From the NCBI RefSeq assembly GCF_001638985.1, contig NW_017265188.1, positions 372,001 through 436,000 of the forward strand: a stretch of DNA of 64,000 bases, given 5' to 3'. Below the pieces are notes generated by a model that had not been told where the DNA came from, ran no database searches, and was given only the letters and a program-made list of their open reading frames with translations. Origin of the DNA: Phycomyces blakesleeanus NRRL 1555(-). Its lineage: Eukaryota > Mucoromycota > Mucoromycetes > Mucorales > Phycomycetaceae. Of the stretch, positions 2,656 through 55,778 are shown in pieces (positions within the stretch are counted from its first letter, which is position 1; each line of letters starts with the position of its first letter). The translations under genes were made by a program, and so were the position numbers.

Positions 2656-3246
2656 CAGTGCCTCCGGTGCCAATTGACGCTTTTAGAGCATCTGCGGCGG
2701 TTACAAAGTTAATTCTTGCGACTGTTTCAATGTAGATTCCGAAATGTTCTCAAAAAATCTTCTGCAGCGGTTACATTACAGACAGCATTATAGATAATAT
2801 AGTCCATTTTTAAGGCCAGTAACATTACATGTAGTCTTACATTATACATTGATATTTTCTTTTTGAATCGTTTTCTTCCCTCTCACATCCTTTGTTAAAA
2901 CGAACAATGGTCTATAGAAATGAGCAAAGAAATCCTCAAATTAGGCTCACTATTAATCTGACAATATTGAAATTATTAAATTCATATTTTTAAGGCATTC
3001 ATAGAGAACAAATGTCCAATAAAATAAATTTTAAGAAAAAGAATATGAACAAAATCATTAGTGAAGAACTGGAAACTAGACAGTCAAAAAGCTCAAATTG
3101 TTCCTTTATAATATAACCACAATTTGGAAATCTGTTTTTAACCAGTATTCAATCCCTGGTGTGGCTAAACCACACTATATATAATGTTTTTGATAATGTA
3201 ACTGCTGCAAATGCTCTAAAAGCGTCAATTGACACTGGAGGCACTG
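2656..3246 (+). mobile_element. MITE-1 copy A (Tc1/mariner-like ends)
   Basis: A 591-bp non-coding element bounded by TA on each side (2654-2655 and 3247-3248). Its ends are inverted repeats of about 50 bp starting CAGTGCCTCC and running through GACGCTTTTAGAGCAT to GCAGCAGTTAC. TA duplication with CAGT-starting ends is typical of Tc1/mariner elements. It has no transposase, so it must be non-autonomous. The core 2684-3217 recurs in reverse orientation at 5701-6233, almost identical. A second GCAGCGGTTACAT motif lies inside near 2764, which suggests nested or composite ends. The family assignment is inferred from ends and target site only. Confidence 0.75.
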
Positions 3247-3385
3247 TACCTGGGCTGAGACGAAGAGAAAAAAATGAGGCGTCAGGTACCTGTGTAACTA
3301 ATAGAACAGCCAATAATTCTTCACAAGAAAATATAGCAATAATAAACTATTAAAGATGTTACTTTGAGAGGCCCTTAATTTTAAA

Positions 3386-4467
3386 CATGGGTTAATTTAG
3401 CCGGACTATACAATTAAATGTAGACAGTATCCATTACAGATTAAATATCCCAACCTGTCAACCAAGCGATTCAAAGGAGCACAGGCCACATTGGTGGCAG
3501 CCGAAATCATCCCTGAAAATACCAGGCCGAAAAAAGAATAAAAAAAGATTAAAAATAAAGCAAACCCCCCAAAAAAAGCCGATCACATAACCATAGTATC
3601 CATCGGACTCCAAACCCCACAAGAAGCTTAATGATATCAAGAATAAAGGTAAACTTGTCCTAATGTCAGACCAGAATCTATCTAGCAGTATGTATTATAG
3701 TTAAATCATACAAGCTAACACATAGAAATTGTGGTTTTTGACCCTTAGACGATTACATTATCGCTGCATGCAGAAATGATCAGGATGACATTCTCATCGA
3801 TCTACTCAAACTAAAGAATCACGACATCAACTTTGCTGATGGTGCTGGAAATACGGCTGCTCACCATGCGTATGTTATGTTATTTTATTTTGTTCAACAA
3901 ATTGAACGTTATAATTCAATTTCTATATTCAATATTCGCAATAGGGCAATGTTTGGTTCCCTAGCTTGTTTGGAAATACTGGCCCATCAAGGGTCAATTA
4001 ATATGAACAAAAAGAATATTGCCACAGGGGACACGCCTCTTCACCAGGCAGTTCAATATACAGATGAGCCTGATATTGCATTGGCAATGGTTGATGTATT
4101 GCTGCAGGCCAGCGCTGACCCAAGGTACGTACTAAGTCTGTCTATATTTATGGCGTTTAATTTATTTGCAAAATTATTACTGATAGATTAAAAAATAAGA
4201 ATGACCAGACGCCAATCATGCTAGTCGATCCGAAGGATGAAGATATGTTGGATCTTCTCAAGCAGGCTATCGCAGGCTATGAAATGGTAATTTGATCTCT
4301 TAAATGTCTATATTTAACATACTGTATATACATAAACGAAATTTTTATGTTTGTCTCAAATACATATATATACATTTCATTTAATTTCATTTCTGGTGTA
4401 GGGTGGATCTGATATAGAAGGACACAACGATGTATATGATTCAGATGATTATGATCCAGATTTTTAA
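3386..4467 (+). CDS. small ankyrin-repeat protein, about 5 exons (first exon uncertain)
   Basis: Ankyrin-repeat protein, presumably a protein-binding adaptor; its partner is unknown. Supported exons are 3749-3869, 3945-4124, 4187-4286 and 4402-4467, joined in phase by GT-AG introns. They give DYIIAACRNDQDD, then DGAGNTAAHHAAMFGSLACLEIL and GDTPLHQAVQY, then NKNDQTPIMLVDP, and a very acidic tail (YDSDDYDPDF) before the stop at 4465-4467. The repeats have the usual G-TPLH and AA-G pattern. The exon at 3749 needs one base from an upstream exon; ATG+G at 3386-3389 with a weak gttaat donor would give MDDYIIAAC and a 357-nt intron. This is the best candidate start found but not proven. The gene lies between two inverted MITE copies, and its promoter would be MITE-adjacent. 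Confidence 0.7.
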
Positions 4468-4554
4468 TATTTGCTTGTGCATATAACACAGACACACACA
4501 CACACATATATATATTGTAACATAAAACAATATATAACAGCTGCCAATATAGTT

Positions 4555-5220
4555 TTACTTCAATACAACGGCTGCATTTCGGCTGGCCAAGTATGTCTGC
4601 ACATTTGGTACACCCAAAGTACGAATAAATTGATAAATTTCTGCATTGTGATATCTCAAGCTCGTCTTTGGATCAGTGTATTTAGCATCAAGACCAGTAA
4701 TATCACAATACTTCTTCTGCGGCAAGACAGAGGGTGGACATTCGATGTTTTGGTCTATGATCAAATTAAGCAGCCTTTTAGTTCCGATTCCTCATATTCG
4801 ATCATCCAAAGGCTTACATGTAGGGATATCAAGTGCAAGTTCCTGTGCCTTTTCAAGAGCTAGCACTTGTTTCAGATTTTTCGACTTCTTCGGCGAAGAG
4901 TATTTAGGATTCTTAAAAGGCTTCTTGGCAATTGCTAAATTGAGAGGGCCAGAAATGATCTCTTCATGGTCATCGTATTCTAGATTCTGAAGAAGAATAA
5001 AACAAGAATAAATATAGAGATTTATGAAAAAGCTCTTACCTTTTGTTTGGACCCGCTTGATGACTTTTTCTGATTGGACCTCTTTGGAGCCCTTTAAAAC
5101 AATAATCATTAAGTCATTCCACACTCCAATTCATCTACTCACATCTTCACTATCCTTTGTGTTCAAATGGTGCAGGACAAATGTGGTGATTTTAGCAATT
5201 TCACCCCACAGTCACACCAT
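4555..5220 (-). CDS. IES6: INO80 chromatin-remodelling subunit Ies6/INO80C (5' end unresolved)
   Basis: Subunit of the INO80 remodeller, which moves and edits nucleosomes, working with Arp5. The last exon 4754-4555 encodes a YL1_C domain: NIECPPSVLPQKKYCDITGL, then YTDPKTSLRYHN and RNAAVVLK at the C-terminus. Upstream exons are 4979-4818 (KKSKNLKQVL, the Ies6-type basic segment) and one ending at 5040 (KEVQSEKVIKRVQTK). A further piece (DSED) lies near 5142-5153. The intron between IPT and YQNIE is 4817-4755; reading through it would hit a stop. The domain order (variable basic N-terminus, NLKQ segment, YL1_C at the extreme C-terminus) matches Ies6 and not the larger Swc2/YL1. I found no in-frame ATG, so the first exon lies further upstream, perhaps as a tiny exon. 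It converges on the ankyrin gene, with 87 bp between the two stops. Confidence 0.85.
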
Positions 5221-5700
5221 CGTACCTTTGATTGTGGGAATCAAATACAGTGTTTCTACTTCAAATTCAGGCAGTTCTAGGTTTTTTTGGACGAATCAAA
5301 ATCATAACACAGGCAGAATGTCTACCTTCTTTGGAAAGAATAATTGATATTCAGACAGTTACAGGTTAAAAATACCATAAAATAATCCCTTTCTGTTTAA
5401 AAACTATAGTAAAATTTGCCTTAATCGTTTTCTTTATGTCTAAGACCTAATTTTTATTGGTCTGAAAAATACACTTTGTCTCAATTCCAAGAGTTTAAAG
5501 ACTGTAATAAGGTACAGAAATCAACACCGGCTTTTGAAAAAACGTATTCGATCTTTAAATATATAAAACCTCGCACGTTGAGTTTGTATTTTCCGCCCCT
5601 CGATTGAACAATTCGTCTATTGGCATTGCGATCACTGTAATGGGATACGTGTCGATAGAAAAATTCAAAAAGTCTAAAAATGAAAAGAAGACACTGTATA
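5221..5700. other. intergenic, probable 5' region of the Ies6 gene
   Basis: No gene is recognised. It should contain the missing Ies6 first exon and promoter. The short minus-strand reading frame at 5481-5759 runs into the MITE and looks fortuitous. Confidence 0.5.
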
Positions 5701-6233
5701 AGAGCATCTGCAGCAGTTACATTATCAAAAACATTATATATAGTGTGGTTTAGCCACACCAGGGATTGAATACTGGTTAAAAACAGATTTCCAAATTGTG
5801 GTTATATTATAAAGGAACAATTTGAGCTTTTTGACTGTCTAGTTTCCAGTTCTTCACTAATGATTTTGTTCATATTCTTTTTCTTAAAATTTATTTTATT
5901 GGACATTTGTTCTCTATGAATGCCTTAAAAATATGAATTTAATAATTTCAATATTGTCAGATTAATAGTGAGCCTAATTTGAGGATTTCTTTGCTCATTT
6001 CTATAGACCATTGTTCGTTTTAACAAAGGATGTGAGAGGGAAGAAAACGATTCAAAAAGAAAATATCAATGTATAATGTAAGACTACATGTAATGTTACT
6101 GGCCTTAAAAATGGACTATATTATCTATAATGCTGTCTGTAATGTAACCGCTGCAGAAGATTTTTTGAGAACATTTCGGAATCTACATTGAAACAGTCGC
6201 AAGAATTAACTTTGTAACCGCCGCAGATGCTCT
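5701..6233 (-). mobile_element. MITE-1 copy B, inverted relative to copy A
   Basis: A 533-bp segment that is the reverse complement of the core of copy A, almost identical by eye. It carries the same AGAGCATCTGC ends and the internal GCAGCGGTTAC motif. Outer arms present in copy A (CAGTGCCTCC to GACGCTTTT) are missing or unrecognisable here: the left flank is ...CTGTATA and the right flank AAATGCG. So it is either a shorter form of the element or an end-trimmed copy. No clear target-site duplication is visible. Confidence 0.7.
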
Positions 6234-6399
6234 AAATGCGCATAGTTTATCGGACATTTAATAAAGTCTATACGTCACTCATTACGCGTCGGGTGTGCGT
6301 AGCCTTTGTCCTTAAAGCACACGTCCTCTCAGTTTGACTTTCATTTATATATTTATATAATACATATACATATTCTTTTTTGACTTAAACCAACAAGAA

Positions 6400-36520: not shown

Positions 36521-37909
36521 GATGTTAAATCTTCGTCACTGCTATTTTTTTTTCATTTTTTTTTAGTGAACATACAGCCACAATATATTCAGCCTCCTCA
36601 GCGGAGATTTCTCTTATAAGGAAATCATTGCCACACAATGTACACAGAAGGGCAAAATAGAGAATACATATAGTAGTTTTCAGGTAAAATTCCTATCGCA
36701 AAAAGGATCAAATAATATTAGTATTGTTATTTTTTCCTATTTATGTCAGGTGGAATATATCCTCTCGGTAATTTAGCGTATACTCATTAAAGATAACCAT
36801 TACAATCAATGTCATATCTTTGCGACACATTGCAATTAGCAAAAGTATTAAAAAGTCCCTCAAGTATATATATACACACATCAATTTGAAGCTGATCTAG
36901 AGTGACCCAACAATACCCAAGAATCCCTTTCATCTTTTTTTCATATTTATACATATACAATATATACTATTTACAGAGAAAATTGTTGCTCCTGATCCAC
37001 ATTGATGTTGTACTTCAAAAGTTAAATGGCGCATTCTTAAGATGTGTTGTCGCACAACCATTGTTTTTGGTTTTTGGTTTTTTTTTTTTGCTTTTCATTG
37101 TTGGGTAAAGTACAGCGTTTAAACTTTATATTGGTACAGCTTGAATTTTATTTTAAGGTCGACTATGGCCACTAATAACGTCTTGAATTATTGAAGACGC
37201 TCTTCTAAGCGGTGGAGCCGCATTGCTATATCATCCTGCAACTTTTACAAGTGAGAACATTATTCAAACCCAAAGTAAGTTTCAGCAAAAGCCATTTTAT
37301 TACATAAATGACATTCGTGTATTTGAAAAAATGGTAGTATGATCTCCCAACAACCCTTGCATTTCTTCTTGTTTACTTGGTGTATGATTTGCAAACTCTT
37401 TTGATCTGCAACTTTTAAAGCCATATTGGCGCCAGCTGTTGCATACATTCCTTCGTTCTACTTGATTAACATCATGGTTACAGATTTCTACATTACGCTT
37501 CTGCCTTTTTAGCTTAGCCATTTAATATTCAGTACTTCTTTTATGTTTTGTAACAACTACATCATGGTCACATATATTAGATTTTTCAGCTCTACGCTCT
37601 ATGTCATATATATGTAAAAGTATGAGTTTTGTTTAGCATATTTATCGTCTCAATTTGTGAGGTGATATTTTAAAAAAAAAATTCTCCTATAACAAATCAA
37701 AATTCGTCTCAACCTCAAGTAAAAAATATATACACACTATTATACTTAATGCTCTTGGTTTCTTTTAAGCTTTGGTTTCCAATATAACAATAAACTTTAG
37801 AAATTTCTGAAGCATTGTTTTGATGGATATAATATAAAAAGGCCTCTTCTGTCTGTATCGATGGGAACACAAGTATCAATCGTGAATTTTAACTCACATA
37901 TTCACTGTA
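36521..37909. other. intergenic, about 1.4 kb, next to the palindrome
   Basis: OGG1 promoter region to about 36700. The 37260-37540 stretch (minus strand) has two overlapping frames that read like a frameshifted fragment with cysteines (KKKCKGCWEIILPFFQIHEC HLCN), possibly a zinc-ribbon remnant; no family is recognised. The rest is AT-rich. It ends at TA (37908-37909), the border of the left palindrome tip. Confidence 0.4.
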
Positions 37910-38404
37910 GGGGGTTTCACCAGCTTTGGATGCTTGACTGTTGGATGTAGCGGTAGTTTAATTCGAAAAATGATTGGCTGCGACGAATCTTCAAGAAATG
38001 AAAACTGAGCATCCAGGCATCCAAAAAAAAATAGTTCGATAGTCTAATGTAATGACTTGGCCAAAATTTACAAGATTCTGTGCTTTATGTACGATTGATG
38101 GCAAGGTTCATAGAAAAGCAATGTCAAAAATAAAACATAATCAATCTATGTAAGAGTGGCTATCTTAATACAAAGTTATAGAAGTCTAACTTACTTGTAG
38201 GGAATTTGGGCATGGGCAATATATTTATGAGTATTCTAATCAAGTGTATTATAAATATGAATTCTGACATATATGAGAGAAACCATATCAACCAAGAGAC
38301 ATTAATGGTATTCAATAGTTGTTTTTTGACATTGGTTATTGTTGGATAGTGCTTAAACTAACAATACATCCAACAGTCAAGCACCCAGAGCTGGTGAAAC
38401 CCCC
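37910..38404 (+). mobile_element. MITE-2 copy at the left tip of the palindrome
   Basis: A 495-bp non-coding element with ~50-bp terminal inverted repeats starting GGGGGTTTCACCAGC and including TGCTTGACTGTTGGATGTA. It is bordered by TA on both sides (37908-37909 and 38405-38406). The TIRs differ at a few positions from each other (TTTGGATG versus CTGGGTG). TA target sites suit Tc1/mariner or a similar TA-targeting family; the G-rich tip is also seen in PIF/Harbinger elements, so the superfamily is open. Confidence 0.7.
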
Positions 38405-38544
38405 TATAAGGAAAAGCTCTTTGAATTGAAAATCTAATATATTATGAGAAAAGGATAGTTTTACAATCTGGGCATATTTTACCTTATTTCTGAATCATTA
38501 TTCTTTACATTTGAAAAGGTGATACGGACAGTATTGGTTTATAT

Positions 38545-38632
38545 GATGAAGTGGTCCAGACGGTTAAAAGGAAAAGAGAATAGATATCGATCTCCTTTAT
38601 CATATCCTTGACTCAAATATTTGCATTTGGCA
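38545..38632 (+). other. tRNA-like promoter segment (weak)
   Basis: GATGAAGTGGTCCAGACGG followed by TTAAAAGG resembles the acceptor/D-arm start of a Ser- or Leu-type tRNA, including an A-box-like GTGGTCCAGACGG. About 50 bases on, TTGACTCAAATATTT is a poor match to a B box. No proper anticodon arm or acceptor closure is seen, so it is at most a decayed tRNA or a SINE-like head. A mirror copy is at 49333-49420. Confidence 0.25.
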
Positions 38633-39335
38633 GCTTGTTCTCTCAAGAAAGATAAAAAGAAAACAAAAGTGCTGTGTAAGGATGGTCTTTATTGCTTTCA
38701 TCTTTCGATAATTAATAAAGAAAAATAAGATAATCAGTAAGATATTGTTAAGCTATTACAAAGATGTTGGGATAGAATATGCTTCTTTGGATAATTAATA
38801 ATGAATAAGAGAGAGAAGTAGAAATAGCTAAATATTTCTGTGGTTGATTATTACAATTCTTGTGTCTTTTAATTGATTTCTTCGCCAGCTATAAGAATTA
38901 TATTCTTTTTGCGGCTACGACTTGAGCAATTTTTTTTACATAATTGATACAAAGAAAGGTTTAGGAAGATAGGATATGTCTGGGTCATATGGAAGTTCAA
39001 AGACACGCGCAATTAACTAATGAACTAATGAAGAATCTTCTATTTATGCAAGCTCTCAATGAAGATAAAGATAGCGAATATATCTACTAAGAAGATAATG
39101 CTCCCTGTCACAAGTTTAATATTGGATAAGAGTGGAAGAAATGACATAATTTTATAGTAATAGTAAGGCTGCCAAGTAGTTTAGATTTTAGCTCTATGGA
39201 GATCTCATAAGAATATTCCACCAGAAGAGTGAAAAAGAAAAAAGAGGTTAATCTTCAAAAACTTTTAAGGAGGTGGCGGTTATTACCTATATGGAATAAA
39301 ACAACACTCGGGTTGGTGTTTGTAATATTAAGTGC

Positions 39336-39389
39336 ATGTCAATGGCTAATTGCGTGGCAATGCCTAATTGCATGTGAATGCTTAATTGT
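39336..39389 (+). repeat. three imperfect tandem copies of a 16-18 bp unit
   Basis: Three consecutive units of the pattern CAATGGCTAATTGC, CAATGCCTAATTGC and GAATGCTTAATTGT lie here. The mirror copy is at 48576-48629. Each unit contains a TAATTG or similar core. Function unknown. Confidence 0.6.
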
Positions 39390-40516
39390 ATACATGAGAT
39401 GAAGAAAGTTAATGAAACGTCATCAAACTATTGATTTTTTTTAAAGAAAAACTGTACCTTTGTATTTATATGTTTTTAGGCATGAGTTGTCAAGTGAAAG
39501 AAGATCGGCTAAACCAAGAATGCTAAAGAAGTTGTATTATTGATATATTAGAATTTAATAAGTATGATGACTATTGTCGGTACGAGTCTATATATACATA
39601 TACATACCTTGCTTGTAAGAAAATAAAAAAATTCAAACAGATCTCAGTACTGAATATTGTATTAAAATATTCGTTCGTCTGTTTTTAAAGTGTATCCGAT
39701 TTATCCCAAAAAGTAAAAAATAAAGATTTTTTTGTCAAGACCTGCGCTTGAAGGCCGATCCACTCAAGTTTACACTCAAGCTTCTCAACAACCCTCATTC
39801 CTGCCTACTCGGCATGGCATCAAATTTACCATGACGGCAAAGTATCGGTGAAATGCTTTAATGCCAAACTGCTCGGGACAGGTGTCTGAGACACCCAAGT
39901 GAACAGCATAGCATTTACTTAGGCACCTTAACTTTGCTTCGGGTTCGTCCCTCATGTCCAGTTCTGTTTACCAGAGCGTGGGTTACAAGTATCAAAGTCT
40001 AAGCAATGAGGGACTTGAAAAGCACAGGGATCATTTCAACAGGAAGCAGTAAAATACAGGCGATTGTACTGGGTAATCTGTCGATTCTGCTGGAATCTAC
40101 CTGTATTACCTCACGTCCAGGTGCTCAACGAATTTAAAAAACTCTACGCATCCAGGTGATACACCCTTATACTTGCACCTTTCTGTGACAATCTTGACAT
40201 GCCCCAAAGGACAAAATCTGGAGAGCCAATATCCAACGTCCTAAGAAAATAGCATAAAGCTACCTCTGCGTTCCTCAGTCTTCTCCATGTTATGTGCCGC
40301 ACAACACAGAAAAAACTGACGTGGATTTCATCCGGCTTTCGCCTTCATATGAGTGGCTCAGGAAGGTCTTTAACGTCCAGTATGCTCTACACTAAGAGCT
40401 ACTTTCCCTTACGGTACTTGTGTTCAGTTGGTTTTTTATAAGTATATTTAGCCTTCGATGAAACTTTTCACCAGGATTAGGGAGTTTGTAAAACAACCCG
40501 ACTCATCGGAAGCTAC

Positions 40517-42125
40517 TTAACACAAAGACAAGAACTCAAGACAAGGTGAGGGGATTGCACCCTCCAGTAACCTTTTCCAGGGAGTGAAGGCTACTGACTT
40601 GTTGGTATGTCTGGAAAAGCAGTTCACTAGTTCACAATCCAGAGCAGTCAAAAGACTACTCCGGTTCAAACATTGGAGCTTCTCCATCTCAAACAATAAA
40701 GTCCAAGACGGAATCCCTTTTGGTTTCTTTTCCACTGCAGTAAATGCAGGTAGAATCGCTCAAAGTACGGACCAATTTTAGGCCATGGTACCTTGAGCGA
40801 ACTCAATGACTAGACGCCAAAGAGTGCAGTGCGTTCAATAAAAAAACCAGAATCTCATATTAAGACAAGCCTTATAAATAAGGCGTCTACAATGAGCGAG
40901 TTGGAAAAGAGCCCGGAGACTCACTGTTAAAGACCATGATATACACATTTTGCATGAAAATGTTTACGTATATTCCTTTTGATATATCGTGACCGATAGA
41001 ATACGAGGTACTCAGTGACCACTCCAAGAGTAGAGATATAAATAAAAATCGAGTATAAGGTTAATATACTTATTGTGTCAAAGTGTGTGCGCGTGTGCGC
41101 GTTTACTTACCTAGCTGTTAACTGCGAAGGGTGTAAAATACTGAGCTGGTTCTCGGTACACCTCTCCATAAGCATACTTTGAACACTATCAAGAGAATAA
41201 AGTAATATAAAAGTATAAAGTGAGTATGTTAATTGAGTCAAAGTATGTATATATTGACTTACAACTCAGTGGACCATACATGGTATGAAGGCACCATCAA
41301 AAGAATGGTGGTTAACAGCTAAACAGAACTAGAAACTGCAATAGAAAAAAAGAAAACATCAAATCATAGTTAGCGTGTTGATCGTGTCAAAGTATATGTG
41401 TATGTACGCGTTTACTTACCTAGTAAACAGCAGCGGAAGGCTTGAAAAGTACTTGTGCTAAAAAGCAAGACGGGACGGGACACTGGACACTGTGATAAAA
41501 TAAAAGAAATATCGAATCATAGTTAGTGTATTGATCGTGTCAAAGCGTGTGTGTGTTTGCTTACCTAGCAGATAACTGCGTAGGGTTTAAAAAAGTACTT
41601 GTGCTTAAAAGCAAAACGGCACTGGACACTGGACACTGTGACGAAAGAAAGAAAACATCAAATCATAGTTAGTGTGGTGATCGTGTCAAAGCATCTGTGT
41701 GTGTGTATTTACTTACCTGGTACATGAACTTGACGTGAAGGACCTCTCCGTGGCTACAGTGGAATGGACGCTGGGCATAGAAGACAGAAAAAAAACATGC
41801 ACAAGAAAACACTGTGCTGTAGTTAGTATATTGACCGTGTCAAAGTGTGCATATGTCTGTATAATACTTTACCTGCTATTAGACTGGACATCATTTTTGG
41901 AACTTAGCTAGAAACCGCGTCTGGGGTGCGTTTTCATAATAAATATCAGTATGCACCTTATACGGATAGAAAGATATAGGCATTTAAAGACAATTTTCTT
42001 ACCGTGTCGGAAACCAAGGACCACCGAAAGGAAACCAGGAGGAAGAGGAGGGATAACAGGAAATTGAGAATTGTATCGATTCTTGTATGAAAAAAAATGG
42101 GGATGGCGCAGCACGGAAGGCGTAA
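40517..42125 (-). ncRNA. putative spliced non-coding transcript, left-arm copy (outward)
   Basis: Mirror image of the right-arm unit (see 45840-47448); every splice signal is present at position 87965 minus its right-arm coordinate, for example introns at about 41921-42002, 41771-41872 and 41636-41716. It would be transcribed leftward, away from the spacer. The isolated open frames 41699-41911 (+) and 40517-40735 (-) are not supported as proteins. Confidence 0.35.
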
Positions 42126-43171
42126 AATGCCTATTTTGGATAAATCAAAACAAATTCATATGAAAATTAAATAGTTTCATGTTTTCAGTAAAAGCTCCAT
42201 GTTTTTTATCGCATATTTTTATTGCGTATTTTTTATCGCATATTTCTATCAAGGACCTATTGGTATTATCTAATAGATACATTGAATAGTACCAACACTG
42301 AATACATTTGAGTATTACCTTGTTTTAGATAACATTTATATTTCTTTGGGGAATATATTTCTATATCTTTATGTTCACACTACTGATAATTATTATTATT
42401 ATTATTATTATTATTTTAAAAAAAAATACCAAGTAAATAAAGAAATTCTCCTTAACATTATAATCACACTTTGTTTTCTTTCGCTTCACAAAGTATCCTG
42501 AAAGTCATATAAGTATATAAGAACTACTATTAAGAAAATAATAGCATGTTTTTATTAAGCTATTTTTTTTATTTAGGCTATTCAGTTTTACATACATATG
42601 CAATATCTCTTGTGAGCTACAAACATAATACTCTTTCTTACTCTTGATCAATAAAAACATCGTTATTATAATGTATATTCACATATCTTAGCTAGCATGA
42701 CTTATTCTTTACATAATTATGTCTAGAGCCAAAATTTTAATTATATAAATGTATTAGTAAAGTTATAGATAAATAATAAAGCTGTTAAACCTTTCTTTCG
42801 GACACTGTAGTATGTATATACTGTTACAGTTTATATTTCTTTGAAATCATATTAAAATCATTAAAAAAATTATTTAAAGGATTATTGTAGACATTTTACA
42901 GCTACTGTAGATCTCTAATAGTACGTATTCATACTCTTTCTTTTCTCTTTCTCTCTGATAAAGACATTACTCTTTGATACAGAGTCTAGTCGGCGAGTTC
43001 TTTTTTTTCTTTACTCGACCCTTCTGCTTTTACATTATTTTCAATATACAATATCTATAACTATTTTAACAAAAAAGAATGTAATGATGCTTATACCCTA
43101 TCAAACTAGCTACATATTTTGAATTATATTTAATGCTGATATAGCCCATCTAATAAAATCAGAACAATAAT

Positions 43172-43465
43172 ATGTTTTCTAAGATCAAAGCACAGAATAT
43201 AACAGGTAAGAATCCCTCCATATCTCTATATGTATATACTTTTATTATTCTTCTCTTGTCTTTTACTTGCTGTTTTACTTTTGTGCACTTTTCTTGATAA
43301 ATCATCAAGACTAATCATATAATATCAATAGGAACAGCAGCAGCAACAGCAACTAAATCACCAATATCAACAAGTCTTCTGATTAGTTTCCAATATTTTC
43401 TTAATATTTTTTTTCTGAAATGCATATATTCAATTAAACGAGAACAAAAGAGAAAAAAAAAGTAG
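43172..43465 (+). CDS. possible small two-exon protein in the palindrome spacer
   Basis: ATG at 43172 gives MFSKIKAQNIT; a GT-AG intron (43206-43331) then joins in phase to GTAAATATKSPISTSLLISF and a hydrophobic/basic tail ending KREQKRKKK at the stop 43463-43465. The intron has a good gtaaga donor. The product would be ~55 residues with a short hydrophobic stretch (FQYFLNIFFLKCIY). The family is unknown and the composition is simple, so it may be fortuitous. Confidence 0.2.
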
Positions 43466-44699
43466 ACAATTGGAACTTTGATTTAAATCTTTGACTCATG
43501 ATAAACAATAAATGAGAAGAATCAAAATAAAAACGTAAAATAGAGTGAGAAAGAAAAATATAATTTCTAGCCAAAATTTTACATGAATTCAATATATTAA
43601 GTACTCCTGCGAAATAAAGACAGAACTGTATATCTTTTAACTACTATCTTATCTTTTCTTATAGTCTGTACTTCTTGTATATAAATATTATCTTTGTTGC
43701 TGTAAATATATTGAATATTGCAGATACACTTAATACTACTGCCCTATTTATATGCTATTTTTAATACATTTTACATATCGTCAAGAACAAACAAAAAATT
43801 GCCAGAAATTGTTCTCCAGTAAGACTTTTGAGCAGAAGAAAGAACGTCATTAAAAACATGATAGTAGTCAATATGTGGCGATAAACGGAGGTCACAGAAA
43901 TATAATGTCGAATGATTCCAGATAAATTGGTAGGAGAGTGGTGAGACGTGCTGTGTATGTTGGTGTGGTGTAAGAAGTTTGTAAAAAAAAACATTTAGAA
44001 AAGGAAAAAGGGGATTATCAGATAAACATTCATAGTCTTTGTAGCAAATAAAAGTGTTTTTTGGATAAATACCCAGAGAAAATAAAGAAAAAGAAAATAT
44101 AAGTGTGTAAAAGTTGTTTTTTATTGAGTTAATTTATTTGGGAATATATAGTTTTTCTGAGTTAAGTTGATAGCATGTTATTGAGAAAATTAGATAGTTT
44201 GGATAATACTAATTGTGTTGGTAATTGAATATGGGTACTTGTCCGAAACCAACAGTGCCACCAGCTTGCCTATAAATACTTAGGCTCTACCAGTATAAGA
44301 TATTAAATTGATTTAAAGTACATAATCTATACAAGCCTTGAAATATTGTTAATGTTGTAAATGAGTATTGACTACTGCTGTAATTGAGAATAAGTCTGAA
44401 GAAAATAATACAAAGCCTCAGCTATTCCAGTCAAAGGTATCTACCGATTACTTTATTATTTAACACACAGGTTTAGCATGCATGATAGTGATTATATTTC
44501 ATATGATGATATCACCATAATATGGGATACATCAGTAGATTATTATAAGCATAATTATAACTCATAAACACATTTACTTTCGATGTTAATACTTCATTGG
44601 GACTACACACATTTATATAATTAATCATACATTAATTATTCCAAGATCACGTTGCTCTGATTAAGGCTCAGATAGGATCGATTACCTGACCCCAGTCAT

Positions 44700-44895
44700 A
44701 TAATTTTCCCGATCCAAAATAATATAAATAGCAGTAGTAGTTCAGTGTAGGAACCTGGTCAAACTTTGATACAAAATCCTTTCTCAATAAACAAAACCTA
44801 CACAAGTTCTCACGAATCTTCGTTCCTAATCTCAAATCTTCAATTCTTCCTCTTAAAAACTTCTTCAACTTCAACCACCACAACAGTTAAGATGT
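44700..44895 (+). promoter_or_regulatory. promoter-and-leader-like block pointing to the right arm
   Basis: A TATA-like ATATAAATAG (44722-44731) is followed by a C/T-rich, G-poor leader (44775-44885: many CTTCAA, CTTCTT, ACCACCACAACAG) typical of fungal 5' untranslated regions. It ends in AAGATGTAAATA, where ATG is immediately followed by TAA but where GTAAAT could also be a splice donor. This would suit a non-coding or leader exon for transcription into the right arm. Inferred from composition only. Confidence 0.3.
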
Positions 44896-45839
44896 AAATA
44901 ATATACTCCAAGTCTTAATATCTTAAGATAACTTTAAATGTAAATATTTCAGTAAACTGCTGAAGTTGATCTTACTTACTGTATTATTATATTATATGTT
45001 AATGTATATATATATTTAACCATCAAAAAAATAAAAGTAATATAGACTATCCTAACACATCTCTCTATTTATTTTCTTATTATTTTCAAGAGAATAGACT
45101 GATACCCACAATATATAGGCTAAAATGATATTATAGTAGATCAGTATATATTATCTTCTCTTACACATTTGAGTAATCTATCACACAAACTACTCAAGTT
45201 TCAATTGCCATGAAATTTATATAATTAAAATTTTGGCTCTAGACATAATTATGTAAAGAATAAGTCATGCTAGCTAAGATATGTGAATATACATTATAAT
45301 AACAATATTTTTATTGATCAAGAGTAAGAAAGAGTATTATGTTTGTAGCTCACAAGAGATATTGCATATGTATGTAAAACTGAATAGCCTAAATAAAAAA
45401 AATAGCTTAATAAATACATGCTATTATTTTCTTAATAGTAGTTCTTATCTACTTATATGACTTTCAGGATACTTTGTGAAGCAAAAGAAAACAAAGTGTG
45501 GTTATAATGTTAAGGAGAATTTCTTTATTTACTTGGTATTTTTTTTTAAAATAATAATAATAATAATAATAATAATTATCAGTAGTGTGAACATAAAGAT
45601 ATAGAAATATATTCCCCAAAGAAATATAAATGTTATCTAAAACAAGGTAATACTCAAATGTATTCAGTGTTGGTACTATTCAATGTATCTATTAGATAAT
45701 ACCAATAGGTCCTTGATAGAAATATGCGATAAAAAATACGCAATAAAAATATGCGATAAAAAACATGGAGCTTTTACTGAAAACATGAAACTATTTAATT
45801 TTCATATGAATTTGTTTTGATTTATCCAAAATAGGCATT

Positions 45840-47448
45840 TTACGCCTTCCGTGCTGCGCCATCCCCATTTTTTTTCATACAAGAATCGATACAATTCTCA
45901 ATTTCCTGTTATCCCTCCTCTTCCTCCTGGTTTCCTTTCGGTGGTCCTTGGTTTCCGACACGGTAAGAAAATTGTCTTTAAATGCCTATATCCTTCTATC
46001 CGTATAAGGTGCATACTGATATTTATTATGAAAACGCACCCCAGACGCGGTTTCTAGCTAAGTTCCAAAAATGATGTCCAGTCTAATAGCAGGTAAAGTA
46101 TTATACAGACATATGCACACTTTGACACGGTCAATATACTAACTACAGCACAGTGTTTTCTTGTGCATGTTTTTTTTCTGTCTTCTATGCCCAGCGTCCA
46201 TTCCACTGTAGCCACGGAGAGGTCCTTCACGTCAAGTTCATGTACCAGGTAAGTAAATACACACACACAGATGCTTTGACACGATCACCACACTAACTAT
46301 GATTTGATGTTTTCTTTCTTTCATCACAGTGTCCAGTGTCCAGTGCCGTTTTGCTTTTAAGCACAAGTACTTTTTTAAACCCTACGCAGTTATCTGCTAG
46401 GTAAGCAAACACACACACGCTTTGACACGATCAATACACTAACTATGATTCGATATTTCTTTTATTTTATCACAGTGTCCAGTGTCCCGTCCCGTCTTGC
46501 TTTTTAGCACAAGTACTTTTCAAGCCTTCCGCTGCTGTTTACTAGGTAAGTAAACGCGTACATACACACATACTTTGACACGATCAACACGCTAACTATG
46601 ATTTGATGTTTTCTTTTTTTCTATTGCAGTTTCTAGTTCTGTTTAGCTGTTAACCACCATTCTTTTGATGGTGCCTTCATACCATGTATGGTCCACTGAG
46701 TGGTAAGTCAATATATACATACTTTGACTCAATTAACATACTCACTTTATACTTTTATATTACTTTATTCTCTTGATAGTGTTCAAAGTATGCTTATGGA
46801 GAGGTGTACCGAGAACCAGCTCAGTATTTTACACCCTTCGCAGTTAACAGCTAGGTAAGTAAACGCGCACACGCGCACACACTTTGACACAATAAGTATA
46901 TTAACCTTATACTCGATTTTTATTTATATCTCTACTCTTGGAGTGGTCACTGAGTACCTCGTATTCTATCGGTCACGATATATCAAAAGGAATATACGTA
47001 AACATTTTCATGCAAAATGTGTATATCATGGTCTTTAACAGTGAGTCTCCGGGCTCTTTTCCAACTCGCTCATTGTAGACGCCTTATTTATAAGGCTTGT
47101 CTTAATATGAGATTCTGGTTTTTTTATTGAACGCACTGCACTCTTTGGCGTCTAGTCATTGAGTTCGCTCAAGGTACCATGGCCTAAAATTGGTCCGTAC
47201 TTTGAGCGATTCTACCTGCATTTACTGCAGTGGAAAAGAAACCAAAAGGGATTCCGTCTTGGACTTTATTGTTTGAGATGGAGAAGCTCCAATGTTTGAA
47301 CCGGAGTAGTCTTTTGACTGCTCTGGATTGTGAACTAGTGAACTGCTTTTCCAGACATACCAACAAGTCAGTAGCCTTCACTCCCTGGAAAAGGTTACTG
47401 GAGGGTGCAATCCCCTCACCTTGTCTTGAGTTCTTGTCTTTGTGTTAA
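45840..47448 (+). ncRNA. putative spliced non-coding transcript, right-arm copy (outward)
   Basis: Seven consecutive segments have all signs of real introns on the + strand: 45963-46044, 46093-46194, 46249-46329, 46401-46475, 46546-46629, 46703-46779 and 46855-46943 (75-102 nt). Most start GTAAGT/GTAAGC, carry a CTAAC branch-point-like motif after a shared TTTGACACGATCA segment, and end in a T-rich tract plus CAG or TAG. The exons between them are 48, 54, 71, 70, 73 and 75 nt. Exons 46045-46092 and 46630-46702 have stops in all three frames, so no protein can be read through. Exons 46330-46400 and 46476-46545, with their introns, are duplicates of each other (TGTCCAGTGTCC start). Boundaries of the transcript are unknown. 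It may be a long non-coding RNA or a dead gene that kept its introns. Confidence 0.4.
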
Positions 47449-48575
47449 GTAGCTTCCGATGAGTCGGGTTGTTTTACAAACTCCCTAATCCTGGTGAAAA
47501 GTTTCATCGAAGGCTAAATATACTTATAAAAAACCAACTGAACACAAGTACCGTAAGGGAAAGTAGCTCTTAGTGTAGAGCATACTGGACGTTAAAGACC
47601 TTCCTGAGCCACTCATATGAAGGCGAAAGCCGGATGAAATCCACGTCAGTTTTTTCTGTGTTGTGCGGCACATAACATGGAGAAGACTGAGGAACGCAGA
47701 GGTAGCTTTATGCTATTTTCTTAGGACGTTGGATATTGGCTCTCCAGATTTTGTCCTTTGGGGCATGTCAAGATTGTCACAGAAAGGTGCAAGTATAAGG
47801 GTGTATCACCTGGATGCGTAGAGTTTTTTAAATTCGTTGAGCACCTGGACGTGAGGTAATACAGGTAGATTCCAGCAGAATCGACAGATTACCCAGTACA
47901 ATCGCCTGTATTTTACTGCTTCCTGTTGAAATGATCCCTGTGCTTTTCAAGTCCCTCATTGCTTAGACTTTGATACTTGTAACCCACGCTCTGGTAAACA
48001 GAACTGGACATGAGGGACGAACCCGAAGCAAAGTTAAGGTGCCTAAGTAAATGCTATGCTGTTCACTTGGGTGTCTCAGACACCTGTCCCGAGCAGTTTG
48101 GCATTAAAGCATTTCACCGATACTTTGCCGTCATGGTAAATTTGATGCCATGCCGAGTAGGCAGGAATGAGGGTTGTTGAGAAGCTTGAGTGTAAACTTG
48201 AGTGGATCGGCCTTCAAGCGCAGGTCTTGACAAAAAAATCTTTATTTTTTACTTTTTGGGATAAATCGGATACACTTTAAAAACAGACGAACGAATATTT
48301 TAATACAATATTCAGTACTGAGATCTGTTTGAATTTTTTTATTTTCTTACAAGCAAGGTATGTATATGTATATATAGACTCGTACCGACAATAGTCATCA
48401 TACTTATTAAATTCTAATATATCAATAATACAACTTCTTTAGCATTCTTGGTTTAGCCGATCTTCTTTCACTTGACAACTCATGCCTAAAAACATATAAA
48501 TACAAAGGTACAGTTTTTCTTTAAAAAAAATCAATAGTTTGATGACGTTTCATTAACTTTCTTCATCTCATGTAT

Positions 48576-48629
48576 ACAATTAAGCATTCACATGCAATTA
48601 GGCATTGCCACGCAATTAGCCATTGACAT
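48576..48629 (-). repeat. mirror copy of the 16-18 bp tandem repeat
   Basis: Reverse complement of 39336-39389 within the right arm; same three imperfect units. Confidence 0.6.
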
Positions 48630-49560
48630 GCACTTAATATTACAAACACCAACCCGAGTGTTGTTTTATTCCATATAGGTAATAACCGCCACCTCCTTAA
48701 AAGTTTTTGAAGATTAACCTCTTTTTTCTTTTTCACTCTTCTGGTGGAATATTCTTATGAGATCTCCATAGAGCTAAAATCTAAACTACTTGGCAGCCTT
48801 ACTATTACTATAAAATTATGTCATTTCTTCCACTCTTATCCAATATTAAACTTGTGACAGGGAGCATTATCTTCTTAGTAGATATATTCGCTATCTTTAT
48901 CTTCATTGAGAGCTTGCATAAATAGAAGATTCTTCATTAGTTCATTAGTTAATTGCGCGTGTCTTTGAACTTCCATATGACCCAGACATATCCTATCTTC
49001 CTAAACCTTTCTTTGTATCAATTATGTAAAAAAAATTGCTCAAGTCGTAGCCGCAAAAAGAATATAATTCTTATAGCTGGCGAAGAAATCAATTAAAAGA
49101 CACAAGAATTGTAATAATCAACCACAGAAATATTTAGCTATTTCTACTTCTCTCTCTTATTCATTATTAATTATCCAAAGAAGCATATTCTATCCCAACA
49201 TCTTTGTAATAGCTTAACAATATCTTACTGATTATCTTATTTTTCTTTATTAATTATCGAAAGATGAAAGCAATAAAGACCATCCTTACACAGCACTTTT
49301 GTTTTCTTTTTATCTTTCTTGAGAGAACAAGCTGCCAAATGCAAATATTTGAGTCAAGGATATGATAAAGGAGATCGATATCTATTCTCTTTTCCTTTTA
49401 ACCGTCTGGACCACTTCATCATATAAACCAATACTGTCCGTATCACCTTTTCAAATGTAAAGAATAATGATTCAGAAATAAGGTAAAATATGCCCAGATT
49501 GTAAAACTATCCTTTTCTCATAATATATTAGATTTTCAATTCAAAGAGCTTTTCCTTATA

Positions 49561-50055
49561 GGGGGTTTCACCAGCTCTGGGTGCTTGACTGTTGGATGTA
49601 TTGTTAGTTTAAGCACTATCCAACAATAACCAATGTCAAAAAACAACTATTGAATACCATTAATGTCTCTTGGTTGATATGGTTTCTCTCATATATGTCA
49701 GAATTCATATTTATAATACACTTGATTAGAATACTCATAAATATATTGCCCATGCCCAAATTCCCTACAAGTAAGTTAGACTTCTATAACTTTGTATTAA
49801 GATAGCCACTCTTACATAGATTGATTATGTTTTATTTTTGACATTGCTTTTCTATGAACCTTGCCATCAATCGTACATAAAGTACAGAATCTTGTAAATT
49901 TTGGCCAAGTCATTACATTAGACTATCGAACTATTTTTTTTTGGATGCCTGGATGCTCAGTTTTCATTTCTTGAAGATTCGTCGCAGCCAATCATTTTTC
50001 GAATTAAACTACCGCTACATCCAACAGTCAAGCATCCAAAGCTGGTGAAACCCCC
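49561..50055 (-). mobile_element. MITE-2 copy at the right tip of the palindrome
   Basis: Mirror image of 37910-38404, bordered by TA at 49559-49560 and 50056-50057. Its outer terminus is the outer terminus of the whole palindrome. Confidence 0.7.
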
Positions 50056-53000
50056 TACTATATGCCACTGACTTCTTGGATATAGTGTTGAAAAGAGTCT
50101 TACACATATGACAGATTATTGTGAAACCTGGACATTCTTTCGAAGAAATTTTTTTTTTTTCTAAACGATTAATTAAAGCTTTGTTGTTGGAAGCAATAGT
50201 GTCTTGAACTAAAATGAAGGGTTGTTTTTTTTTATAGAAAAGTCTATCTCAGACAAATTCTGCTTGTACCAAGTACCTCTTCCAGTTTTTTGTTATCGAT
50301 AAACTACCGCATAAAAGCCTTAACTATAACAGCACCGATATCAATTAATGGGTGACATCTTACTTTTTATCTTATTTGACCTTACAAGGAAGACAAAGCA
50401 TTGGAAATTGACATTTGTTCTTTGTTTTAATTGAGAATAAAGCGCTAAAATATAAAGCATCTCGGTTTAGACAAAACTCTATTTCAATAAAGGTGTTCTG
50501 CATTCCAAAACATCTCGCCTTGTTTTGTGTGTGTGTGGCCATTTACTTTCTATATTATGGACATAAAAAAGAATAAGTATAGATAAGAGTATGTATATAA
50601 ATAAGGGTAAGGAACAAGTAAAAATATGATAGCAGCTATCAAAAGGGTAGGAAAGGTTAACGTTGGTCACACAATTCGGTGTGACTACTAGTCTGGGGTC
50701 CAGCTTGAAACTTTCTTCAAAAAAATACCTGTCTCCATCTTTAAATCAGTCCCATTTCTTGGGAACAACAAAAACACGTCCTTTTAAAGTCATTGTCATT
50801 TAATTGTAAGAATAATAATAATAGAAATCTTTGCAAATAATAGAATGTAAAACCTTTTTCTCATTACATACGTTATGTAAATTGTATAAATACAGTACTT
50901 TTAGGAGGTGTTGAGAAGTTTCAAGAAGAAGTAGATCAGCTATCTCACCAGTAAGCTAAAGCACTTTAGCTGTATGACAACACAGCATATCGAAAGTGGC
51001 CATAACGCGTTGAAAAGGAGAATTTTGGCTCCGATATTTGGGCTCTTATTTCGAACAGATATGCTCATATCTCTTACAACTGTACGGAAACTATCAAGAT
51101 CGTAGACTGGACGAGGAGTTGGTAACCGATGCAAGAATACTTGCTGTCGAACGCCTCCGTGGATTGATTTGCCACGTTTCAGGAATTGGTTTGATAACCA
51201 TCCGTGCCGAGCTTTTGGAAGAGGTTATCCCTGACGAGCATTGCGATCTCAGAGTAAAAGTGGTGTTTGGCCTTCTTTGTTGCCATGATTTTCCAAGAGA
51301 TCGTATATTACTTTTATCGAACATTCCTAAAATATGGATCCTGTCGTCTTCTTTGGATGAACGTTTGGAGCAATTAGGATATGATATTTCTCCAAAGCAA
51401 ATTGCTGTTGAAAAGCATGCTCCGTGGGTAAAATGCATCACAAAGCTTGAACGCTTATTTTGCTAGTGTGAAAAAGGATAACAGATACAGAATCTTATGG
51501 CAATGGTTGATGAGTTGGTCGATGATGCCGGTGAGATGATCAGTCGTCCAAATGTTTCCTTTCCTTTGGCAAATGAGATCAAAGCTCCTGGAAGACCTAA
51601 GCACGCCAAAAGAAAAACTGCTCTCCCAAAGGACTTTGTCCGTCACAAGCACAGACATCTCCTAGTCCAAAAAAAATAAAGTAAGAATATAACATACACA
51701 ATTACACAATCTAATACACATGATTTCTTATTTATCTAGAGTGAAATTAGAAAGATATTACAAGAAGGCATTATAGATGTGATGAAGGAACTCTTAGAGG
51801 AGAAGCCTCTAAAAAAAACCATTTCCGATGGCATTACACCATGTACATGCGTGCCACTGGACAACAATCAAAGTTAAGCCTCATGTACATCGGTCCTGGC
51901 CTGAGGTAAATGTGCTGTGTTTTGATGCTATCCGTAGAAGGAGTATCATCGACTATTTTTCTACAAGGAGCTGTTGGGGTCAGTTCCCAAAGAATAAAGT
52001 TTATCTCTTGCCATCCACTACTACCACTAACTTTCCTACCAATTCTTCGATAAATTCTTCTGATATTATTGACCTTACCAATATATAATTTATCCAATTT
52101 TTCTATCTTTTAATATACTTTACTCTTATTTTTTCTTTAAAGTTTTAGAAAACACAATTGCACCCCGTCTGTCTTTAATTTTAACGTTATATATAGGGCA
52201 CAGGCGCAAGTATTACTGCTTGCAAACGAATTGAAAAAAAAATGGTTATTATTTCTTGGAGTACAAAATTTCTGCGTTAAGAAGCAATCTGATAAAGATG
52301 TAAAACAAAAAATAATCCATAGATTTTGATAGACTTTTAGCTCGTTTAAAAAGATAAAACTTAAGTATTTTCTAAAAGGGCTGATATAATATGTATATAT
52401 GTAGAATTTGAGACGAATTGATTATATTTCGCTTAAAAAAAATAAGTAAAATGTACCATTATTCACACTTTTAACCATTCGAGATAATGTATTTATTTTT
52501 CTAGTAAGATGATTGGTGTGGGCAGATCAAAATGGCTAATAAAATATGGGAAAAAATCAGAATGAGATTATTCAATCAAACTACTTTCTATCTGTCCGCA
52601 CTGTCTTTTAAAAAGACTAAACTTGGTTCAACTGCATATAGGATAAAACCAAGTGTTCGTAATACGGTCTCTTCCATCAAGAATAATCTTATTTTCAGTC
52701 CAATTGGCAACGGGCAAAGGTTTGGAAATCAGTGTCGCCTGAACTTTTTTTCATCCTCGTTCTCAAAGAGCAAAGCATTTAGTATATTTTTAAAACTATA
52801 ATCCAATAATATTGCATAGAATTGTGACATTTGCTTTATATTTATATAAGGATTTCAATCTGTCCTCACCAAGTGAATATAAAGCCAAATTTATAATATA
52901 TATATATAAGATCATTCTTAGAATAAAATAAATAAATGGCAATATTAATGTCTGAACATTTGGTACTTGCTGTTAGCACTAAGAAAACAAGGTGCATACG

Positions 53001-54317: not shown

Positions 54318-55778
54318 ATGAGGTTTCATCTAAGCGAGATTAACAAGATTGAAAAGGTAAATCATATTCCTTATTAACAAAGTGACTGTAATTTACTGTA
54401 TTAACTTGTAGACTGTATAAATTTATAGGGGATATTGCAACGCCAGTTTGAAGCCTCACCATTTGCGAAAGGATATACTACAAAGACAAACCCTACGATT
54501 CTCAAAATCTTCGACTTTGATTCAACCTTATTTCTATCACCATTACTCAGCTCTAATATTTGGCACAAATCATTAATCAATGCCGTCATCAAAGAAAATC
54601 TTCTGGGTCCTGGCTGGTGGAGAGATTACAGAAGTCTTGAATTAGGTCCATTCGATCAACTTGAGGAAAAGGCATGGGATGGATATTGGAATGAAGATGT
54701 AGTATCCGAGGCGCGAAAAGCTATAGCAGACCCTAATTCCCTGACAGTCATGCTGACCGGACGGCGGTACCATCCATTTTACAGCATCGTATACCCAATT
54801 CTTAAAAGCAAAGGTCTCTTCTTTGATGCTATTGGTCTTCGACCTGATCCTGAAGATAAAGAGCCCGACAACTCAGGGCTAATGTACAACGTAATGCCAA
54901 ATGTATTTCAAACAACGATGTCTTTCAAGTCCTCTTTTATCGTCAACCTCCTGGCAAATGTACCGTCGCTCCAGAACATTATTATGTGGGATGACCGAGC
55001 TGCACATATCATTGCATTCTCTAAATATCTTGAAGACATGACAAAGGAAGATATTATCGTAGGTGGAGAAATGATCCCTGTTAAGGCTGTCAGACCAAAG
55101 TATAATCCAGAATGGGAATATGCCGTGGTCAACAATATCATCGATTCCCACAACAAGTCCATCGAGAGATACTTTCAACATAAAAGCGAGAATCCCGACA
55201 TAAATTATACCGAAAGTGAGGAGGTTTGGGAGCAGTCAACAATTGTTAACAATGGATCCCTGGCAACATGGAAAGACCAATACAAGATAGCTCCAATCAA
55301 GACATCCATTGTTGTAAATCTTGAAAAGGACGCGGTGGGTGTGCTCAAGAATTGCTTTGAGCTTTTTTATGAAAAGGAGATTACCCAAGGGAGAAAAGTG
55401 GCACAGTGGGAGATGGTTGGTGGAGAGGGAAATATCTACTTTGGAGTCCATGTTTTTTTGGGTCAATGTTCATTTGATGAAGACATTCCTTTTGGTGGCC
55501 TGGGATCTTCTGTGGATGTTAAGGTTATTAGCCGCTCGCAAGGATGCCCTGATCACGGAATGCTCTTGAAAGTATTGCTTAAAGCAAGTCAAGATGAAGA
55601 ATATGGGCCAGAGGAGTATATTTTGCCACTTTGGCACAAACCTTCCAAGTATTTGTCACTAAATGAAGCGAATTATATGTGGTGTGAATTGGAGGTAGAG
55701 CACCAGTTGGTTTTATGCGGAGAAATGCAATATGGCTATTTGCTTGGAGTAGAAACATTACCTAGACCTGACCAATAG
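54318..55778 (+). CDS. Swiss-Army-Knife-type HAD domain protein, 2 exons
   Basis: Probable phosphatase-like protein of the HAD_SAK family (HAD domain of Swiss Army Knife RNA repair proteins); its physiological substrate is not known. Exon 1 is 54318-54356 (MRFHLSEINKIEK) and exon 2 is 54429-55778, about 462 residues. HAD motif I is IFDFDSTLFLSP (DxDST), followed by LGPGWWRDYRSLELGPFDQL, motif II LTGRR (Thr), and motif III/IV around IIMWDDRAAHI (DD) after a conserved Phe/Lys segment. The first ~250 residues contain the domain; the C-terminal ~210 residues (from VWEQSTIV) I do not recognise. No membrane helix or signal peptide. The motif residues are intact, so catalysis is plausible. The upstream start is preferred because the 72-nt intron joins in phase, adding a natural N-terminus. 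Confidence 0.85.

Follow-up and report, generated by a model that had tools for sequence, protein, structure and literature searches.

Dispersed palindromes of Phycomyces blakesleeanus hold a putative spliced noncoding gene related to the 5' half of large-subunit ribosomal RNA

A 64,000-nucleotide stretch of the genome of Phycomyces blakesleeanus NRRL 1555(-) (contig NW_017265188.1, positions 372,001 to 436,000; GC content of 35%; hereafter, the window) contains a 12-kb palindrome, and the locus raises the question of what this structure is and what keeps its two arms alike. Protein matches agree with this source: for a protein encoded at 54429-55775, the nearest named relative is from Phycomyces nitens (79%), and a second protein of the same list, assigned by NCBI to P. 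blakesleeanus, is encoded in full at 100% identity on contig C20 of the genome. A preliminary description of the window had suggested a centromere, a foldback or giant element, or an assembly artifact. From an analysis of the window and of the 53.5-Mb genome assembly (60 contigs), we propose that this palindrome and its relatives hold a selected family of long noncoding RNA (lncRNA) genes, which are predicted to be spliced, resemble large-subunit (LSU) rRNA and are kept by gene conversion, a reading that, judged from the sequence, we consider just about probable.

Comparison of the window with itself by BLASTN recovered the near-perfect palindrome previously described, with its coordinate sum of 87965 and its 2.46-kb core, the arms extending 3 bp farther at each outer end (Table 1). 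The inverted arms align over 4844 bp at 99.77% identity, with 11 mismatches and 0 gaps, which bears out the reported scattered single-base differences and lack of a net indel; given the length and identity of this match, a chance origin is out of the question. The only stop-to-stop open reading frame (ORF) of at least 100 amino acids within 37000-51000 lies in the core and has no Pfam match, so that protein-coding arms were rejected and the initial impression that there is no convincing protein gene could be upheld. Hereafter, the palindrome (37907-50058) is denoted W, six other assembled palindromes of the same genome are denoted A, C, E35a, E35b, E2, and E24, and further loci and contigs are cited by L and C numbers, respectively.

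Table 1. Coordinates of the palindrome, its predicted genes and its repeats within the window
Feature	Positions	Strand	Remark
Left arm	37907..42750		BLASTN of the window against itself
Right arm	45215..50058		BLASTN of the window against itself
Core between two divergent (predicted) genes	42751..45214		2464 bp
Solo-LTR-like dispersed repeat in the core of W	44353..44885		533 bp, TGTTG...CAACA
MITE-like unit, left outer end	37908..38406		TA at 37908-37909
MITE-like unit, right outer end	49559..50057		TA at 50056-50057
LSU-rRNA-like last exon, left copy	39712..40773	-	RF02543; model position 1 at 40773 (search of a shorter stretch)
LSU-rRNA-like last exon, right copy	47192..48253	+	RF02543; 48253 set by symmetry
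Predicted spliced noncoding gene, left copy	39735..42140	-	Ends estimated from where conservation falls off
Predicted spliced noncoding gene, right copy	45825..48230	+	Mirror of the left copy (coordinate sum 87965), by symmetry
Predicted intron 1	41921..42002	-	82 nt
Predicted intron 2	41771..41872	-	102 nt
Predicted intron 3	41636..41716	-	81 nt
Predicted intron 4	41490..41564	-	75 nt
Predicted intron 5	41336..41419	-	84 nt
Predicted intron 6	41186..41262	-	77 nt
Predicted intron 7	41022..41110	-	89 nt; 3' end least certain
LTR, long terminal repeat; MITE, miniature inverted-repeat transposable element.

Both arms contain a stretch related to eukaryotic LSU (28S) rRNA. The left arm matches the Rfam model RF02543 (LSU_rRNA_eukarya) on the minus strand at 39712-40750 (118 bits, E value of 1.6e-28), and the right arm matches it on the plus strand (109.6 bits; searched in 46800-48700, the reported end at 48700 being the end of the searched stretch), both exceeding the gathering cut-off of 50, as expected of LSU-derived homologs. 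The match was found in an E-value scan and missed in an Rfam scan with fast filters. All four diverged copies that were scanned match the same model, with best matches of 169.5 (L048), 143.8 (L046), 66.5 (L049), and 61.4 bits (L050). The stretch shares with 28S rRNA the fold family, motifs such as ACAAGTACCGTxAGGGAAAG, and a start at model position 1, but differs from it in extent: the printed alignment ends at about position 1460 of 3401, covering only approximately the 5' half, with large deletions. Just before this end stands the helix GUCAAG/CUUGAC, which we take to be the one that closes domain II, and which is paired in 97.9% of cells. Compared with the rRNA consensus, W is identical in 370 of 620 aligned columns and in 202 of the 272 most conserved ones. 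Across 13 of the 14 arms of the seven assembled palindromes (the right arm of E2, with a run of N and an extra 2 kb, was dropped), only 3 of 1200 columns vary in 39807-41006, compared with 12-39 variable columns per 100 bp in each of the 18 intervals of 37907-39706. The exon is also predicted to fold strongly (z of -6.3, with 0 of 20 shuffles equally stable), although a plain rRNA remnant would be expected to fold as well, which limits the value of the fold as evidence of function.

This stretch is not part of a regular rDNA unit, nor is it a complete functional LSU rRNA gene. Ordinary rDNA, with the end of 18S, 5.8S (161.6 bits), and internal transcribed spacer (ITS) sequence, lies at C17:779300-779846 and is followed by N, whereas the LSU-like exon has no 18S-ITS1-5.8S-ITS2-28S context, and its copies are dispersed outside the rDNA, with predicted introns upstream. 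The usual 28S form of the 20-base arm motif used below to count the family has a G at one position; this form is absent from the 35 motif matches, and the sarcin-ricin motif has no match (both searched in the whole genome, at up to 2 mismatches). Taken together, the two absences suggest that the usual 28S gene is outside the assembled letters. Rfam scans yielded no small-subunit rRNA match in the window, where fast filters were used, or in 37900-45300; matches to a snoRNA and to KCNQ1OT1 fell below the cut-off, as did a SCARNA7 match in L046 (38.3 bits versus 65).

Upstream of the LSU match, on the same strand, lie seven predicted introns of 75-102 nt, with six predicted exons of 48-75 nt between them. 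The introns were chosen by eye, not by a gene finder, from GTAAG-like starts, CTAAC-like branch sites (several), and AG ends. The longest stop-free stretch in the predicted spliced RNA amounts to 80 amino acids, as appropriate for a transcript without coding capacity. The ends of the predicted introns recur in the six single copies that were compared with W, being identical at 14 of 14 ends in L039-L041 and at 13 of 14 in L042-L044. All six retain the introns and the 5' flank, indicating that they are not processed retrocopies, and retroposition of rRNA was rejected on this ground; SINE28, a dispersed repeat derived from 28S rRNA, differs in this respect. The gene structure varies in the more distant members of the family, with one exon-intron module missing from L045-L047 and most of the upstream exons missing from L049, L050, and L052 on C4. 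The ~150-bp exon-intron modules within 41328-41722, and in the mirror of this segment, look tandemly duplicated, at ~80% likeness.

The family was counted genome-wide with the 20-base arm motif, which occurs 35 times, compared with 1 match for the reversed control. Twenty of the copies form 10 pairs with a spacing of 6.6-17.6 kb, located on 5 of the 60 contigs (three each on C2 and C31, two on C35, and one each on C22 and C24), the three C31 pairs falling within about 121 kb. The members of all 10 pairs point outward from each other, in the (-)...(+) arrangement. Seven pairs are assembled palindromes, and the other three (two on C2 and one on C22) rest on paired inverted matches. An eleventh inverted pair is more diverged: one arm holds the motif copy at C4:706692, and the other lacks the motif. 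Truncated copies are present on C4 as well. The copies at C13:721116 and C13:721434, 318 bp apart, may represent one rearranged copy. Unlike the palindromes, the five LSU-like motif matches at C13:650912, 711860, 721116, 721434, and 783766 have one orientation and lie within 133 kb. The family alignment has 21 rows, which stand for 20 of the 35 places (W and L001 are the same place, and one arm was taken per assembled palindrome); L051, with a match shorter than 800 nt, was omitted. Thus, the search for the arm elsewhere in the genome that had been suggested at the outset turned up further palindromic copies; these, the LSU-like stretch in each arm, and the MITE-like ends had been overlooked. 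The palindrome is a repeated and probably mobile unit of P. blakesleeanus. The possibility that the arm is a common dispersed repeat without special context held only as to dispersal, given that the conserved part is an intron-bearing, noncoding stretch that resembles LSU rRNA.

The arms of each palindrome are closer to each other than to those of other palindromes. Arm mismatches number 11 in W, 7 in A, 1 in C, 9 in E35a, 1 in E35b, 11 over 3863 bp in E2 (which has a further 605 bp free of mismatches), and 0 over 4012 bp in E24, with 0-8 gap letters between the arms of any one of the seven. Arm identity is 99.5-100% within palindromes and 93.4-98.7% between them (the latter range omits the right arm of E2, with its N run and ~2 kb of extra DNA), a relation that holds for all seven and indicates that the arms are equalized inside each copy, as expected of palindromes subject to gene conversion. 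The differences between palindromes are concentrated in the outer third of the arms. Exchange occurs between copies, too: at the six innermost of the 11 arm differences of W, the left arm agrees with palindrome A and the right arm with palindrome C. Gene conversion is clearly at work in these copies, and its mention in the preliminary description was correct as to one cause of the symmetry.

Does conversion alone account for the conservation of the gene? We compared exons and introns of the six single copies with W; variable sites were pooled over five of them (L039-L043), with L044 left out. In L039-L042, divergence from W is ~22% in the 5' flank, 0.2-1.7% in the LSU part, and 11-25% in the 3' flank. 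In the pool, the share of variable sites in each of the exons E1-E7 is lower than in each adjoining intron (7 of 7), with totals of 70/529 in exons and 106/590 in introns (p = 0.032); in L044, outside the pool, exons 3, 6, and 7 each exceed one or more adjoining introns in variability. When the copies are taken one at a time and exon 1 is included, eight of nine show lower divergence in exons than in introns; the difference is significant for L042 (p = 0.005), L046, and L047 (the last two at p = 0.029 each, their rows being almost the same). Without exon 1, the Fisher test gives p values of 0.002-0.04 for L039-L042 and 0.28 for L043. In a BLAST-based table, the short exons of L045-L047 were more diverged than the introns (22-26% versus 15-18%), the alignment crossing the missing module; with MAFFT, L046 and L047 turn to 10.6% in exons versus 16.1% in introns, and L045 stays reversed. 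Within the LSU part, variation is rarer in columns that agree with the rRNA consensus than in those that do not (12/370 versus 21/250, p = 0.006; within-block permutation, p <= 0.004) in a set of 18 rows, or 17 places, from which L049, L050, and L052 were set aside after inspection. In W, 139 of all 167 consensus pairs can form; among the rRNA pairs changed on both sides, 45 of 60 still pair (shuffles: mean 28.0, SD 3.5, 0/5000), which is an upper estimate because the alignment of W to the consensus was fitted to the structure, and the changes are counted from a consensus that is not the true ancestor.

Besides these two limits on the pairing count, several observations weigh against selection on a gene. 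In L039-L041, divergence from W is close to 0 next to the LSU-like exon and reaches 22% in the 5' flank; such growth with distance is what gene conversion or a recent replacement leaves behind. In L043, L046, and L047, divergence is lower immediately downstream than in the LSU part itself, indicating that copies are mosaics. The exon-intron contrast of single copies is not significant in six of nine (L044, L039, L041, L040, L043, and L045), and it is reversed, nonsignificantly, in L045 (exons 14.6%, introns 10.7%), where an insert near exon 1 disturbs the alignment. Adding L049, L050, and L052 changes the column count to 53/370 versus 43/250, which is not significant (p of 0.23-0.30). Among pairs changed on one side, only 17 of 30 still pair, and covariation within the family, where pairs vary little, is not above that of shuffles (1 pair; 223/500). 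Three of the six single copies (L042, L043, and L044) differ from W in the final G of intron 5, another AG being available 7 nt on. Likeness to 5.8S rRNA upstream of the LSU match is not significant in W (79/1000) or L047 (127/1000); the corresponding figure for L050 is 6/1000.

The main rival explanation is that an old piece of rDNA was taken up by a mobile or duplicated repeat, the copies of which are alike only through conversion and recent duplication, any RNA being functionless; we regard this as a serious possibility, albeit short of probable. The conversion gradients of L039-L041, the letter exchange among W, A, and C, the truncated C4 copies, the MITE ends, the degenerate LSU sequence (identical to the consensus in the 370 of 620 columns given above), and the six of nine single-copy contrasts without significance all speak in its favor. 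However, conversion alone should ignore exon borders and rRNA-matching columns, so that the pooled 7 of 7 contrast and the within-block deficit of change in the 18-row set argue for selection as well. The near-complete retention of intron ends in L039-L044 does not favor a functionless repeat either, nor does the strong folding, to the limited extent noted. Overall, the sequence patterns suggest that selection, in addition to conversion, maintains the exons, which we consider likely but not proved.

The outer ends of the palindromes bear on how the unit spreads. The end sequence reads TA followed by GGGGGTTTCACCAGCT on one side and AGCTGGTGAAACCCCC followed by TA on the other, and the end unit, ~497-499 bp long, has 54-bp inverted repeats of its own. 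The end sequence has 102 matches in the genome (control, 0), and at least 18 pairs of it, 489-499 bp apart, were found outside palindromes among the places listed, which identifies the end as a MITE-like repeat. The palindrome therefore looks like a composite bounded by two such repeats. In four of the seven assembled palindromes (W, A, C, and E2, the last with a changed end sequence), TA is present at both ends, as in a transposon with TA target-site duplications at either side; E35a, E35b, and E24 each show truncation, alteration, or rearrangement at one end. The TA ends would place the unit with the Tc1/mariner superfamily. At C11:1349700-1357480 (L054), the same MITE ends enclose a 7.7-kb interval that contains a run of N and several copies, partly inverted, of a 1.5-kb element with a transposase; the one transposase ORF scanned matches DDE_3 (103 bits), and the ORFs apparently belong to nested elements. 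At C17:475600-476700 (L033), a solo MITE of the same kind sits amid a larger palindrome with 199-bp inverted repeats (99.5%) that extend past the MITE into the flanks; the flank of palindrome E2 likewise includes a short inverted stretch.

Foldback or long-terminal-inverted-repeat elements and MITE-bounded composite DNA transposons have inverted arms, TA ends, and a dispersed distribution, and the initial suggestion of a foldback or giant element stands insofar as the outer ends are concerned. The most conserved part of the Phycomyces unit, however, is the internal RNA-like stretch rather than the ends or a transposase. Another idea is that the unit is purely selfish, with the LSU-like RNA serving the element (its stability, nucleolar localization, or expression) and not the host. 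Dispersal, MITE ends, and many copies would fit such an element, yet the copies L039 on C34 and L042 on C11, which have no match to the outer 1576 bases among the matches listed, retain the LSU part with 99.7% and 98.3% identity, and there is no long ORF in the arms and no Pfam domain in that of the core; we deem this explanation improbable.

The core, too, is common to several palindromes, at a length of ~1.9 kb without the insert of W. The seven assembled cores measure 1923-2464 bp and are 96.3-98.9% alike over ungapped columns (1-4% different). The insert of W is a solo-LTR-like repeat flanked by GTTAA at 44348-44352 and 44886-44890, with 31 other genomic places at 96-99% identity among the matches listed; it is absent from this site in the six other assembled cores. 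The core of another palindrome carries the same repeat at a different site (C2:756255-756786). Outside the palindrome, the window has a second inverted repeat with arms at 2678-3217 and 5701-6240 (540 bp, 2 mismatches, 2.5 kb apart), which includes a 56-bp subrepeat at 2650-2705 and 3197-3252; among the matches listed, this smaller structure (2650-6240) has none to the large palindrome.

Long identical arms around a core are the gross anatomy of the inverted-repeat centromeres of Candida tropicalis and fission yeast, but a core common to palindromes and 10 head-to-head pairs spread over 5 of the 60 contigs, with three within ~121 kb on C31 and three on C2, along with 15 further copies, do not fit one locus per chromosome and make the centromere proposed earlier very improbable. 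Long palindromes are hard to assemble, and one arm of E2 has an N run, but a false inverted duplication is hardly credible for seven copies with different 40-bp flanks, differing cores, and 0-11 arm mismatches, several of which are shared with other copies. For strains UBC21 and L51, PacBio assemblies are available (PMC11258239, which also covers Iso-Seq).

The unit has partial counterparts in known systems. Palindromes of mammalian sex chromosomes are far larger than those of Phycomyces, and their genes are mostly protein-coding; the Phycomyces palindromes differ in their noncoding gene pair, dispersed sites, and MITE ends. The likeness lies in the arms, which in the mammalian palindromes are >99% identical, a feature attributed to gene conversion in PMC3723533 and PMC8981503. 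Filamentous ascomycetes have divergent rDNA paralogs inside their genomes, rRNA pseudogenes that PMC5555474 attributes to repeat-induced point mutation (RIP); the Phycomyces copies, in contrast, are nearly identical to each other, have intron-like modules, and lie partly in palindromes. At the level of literature listings, which leave subscription papers mostly outside, there is no report of such an RNA or such palindromes in Phycomyces, nor of the two joined.

Under the reading that we favor, that of a conserved lncRNA gene family, each palindrome would be a head-to-head pair of identical noncoding genes transcribed outward from a shared core, probably with transcription and splicing of the RNA polymerase II (Pol II) type. 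Each gene would contain seven introns and close with a 1-kb exon from the 5' half of LSU rRNA, degenerate yet strongly folding. The head-to-head copies could pair, such that each arm would overwrite mutations arising in its partner, and this arm-to-arm conversion may keep the dose of equal genes; the MITE ends may have spread the 12-kb unit, with transposase supplied in trans. The RNA could act in trans as a mimic of LSU rRNA, for instance, as a binding partner for the ribosomal proteins or assembly factors of domains I-II, and a degenerate domain I-II RNA would compete for, or report on, the factors that bind those domains. More tentatively, and with considerable doubt, the sequences may point to a new class of RNA genes: a spliced, multicopy lncRNA built on LSU domains I-II, present at a high and equal dose in self-repairing palindromes, and acting as a trans rRNA mimic in the making of ribosomes or the regulation of this process.

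Should the RNA be produced and be under selection, part of an rRNA would have been recruited into a spliced gene of the Pol II type, with ~35 copies, which in Rfam 15 is visible only as a degenerate LSU match. The small, dispersed palindromes would be useful for studies of arm-to-arm conversion beyond sex chromosomes, and P. blakesleeanus would then provide a natural system for exploring the cellular role of an isolated LSU domain I-II RNA.

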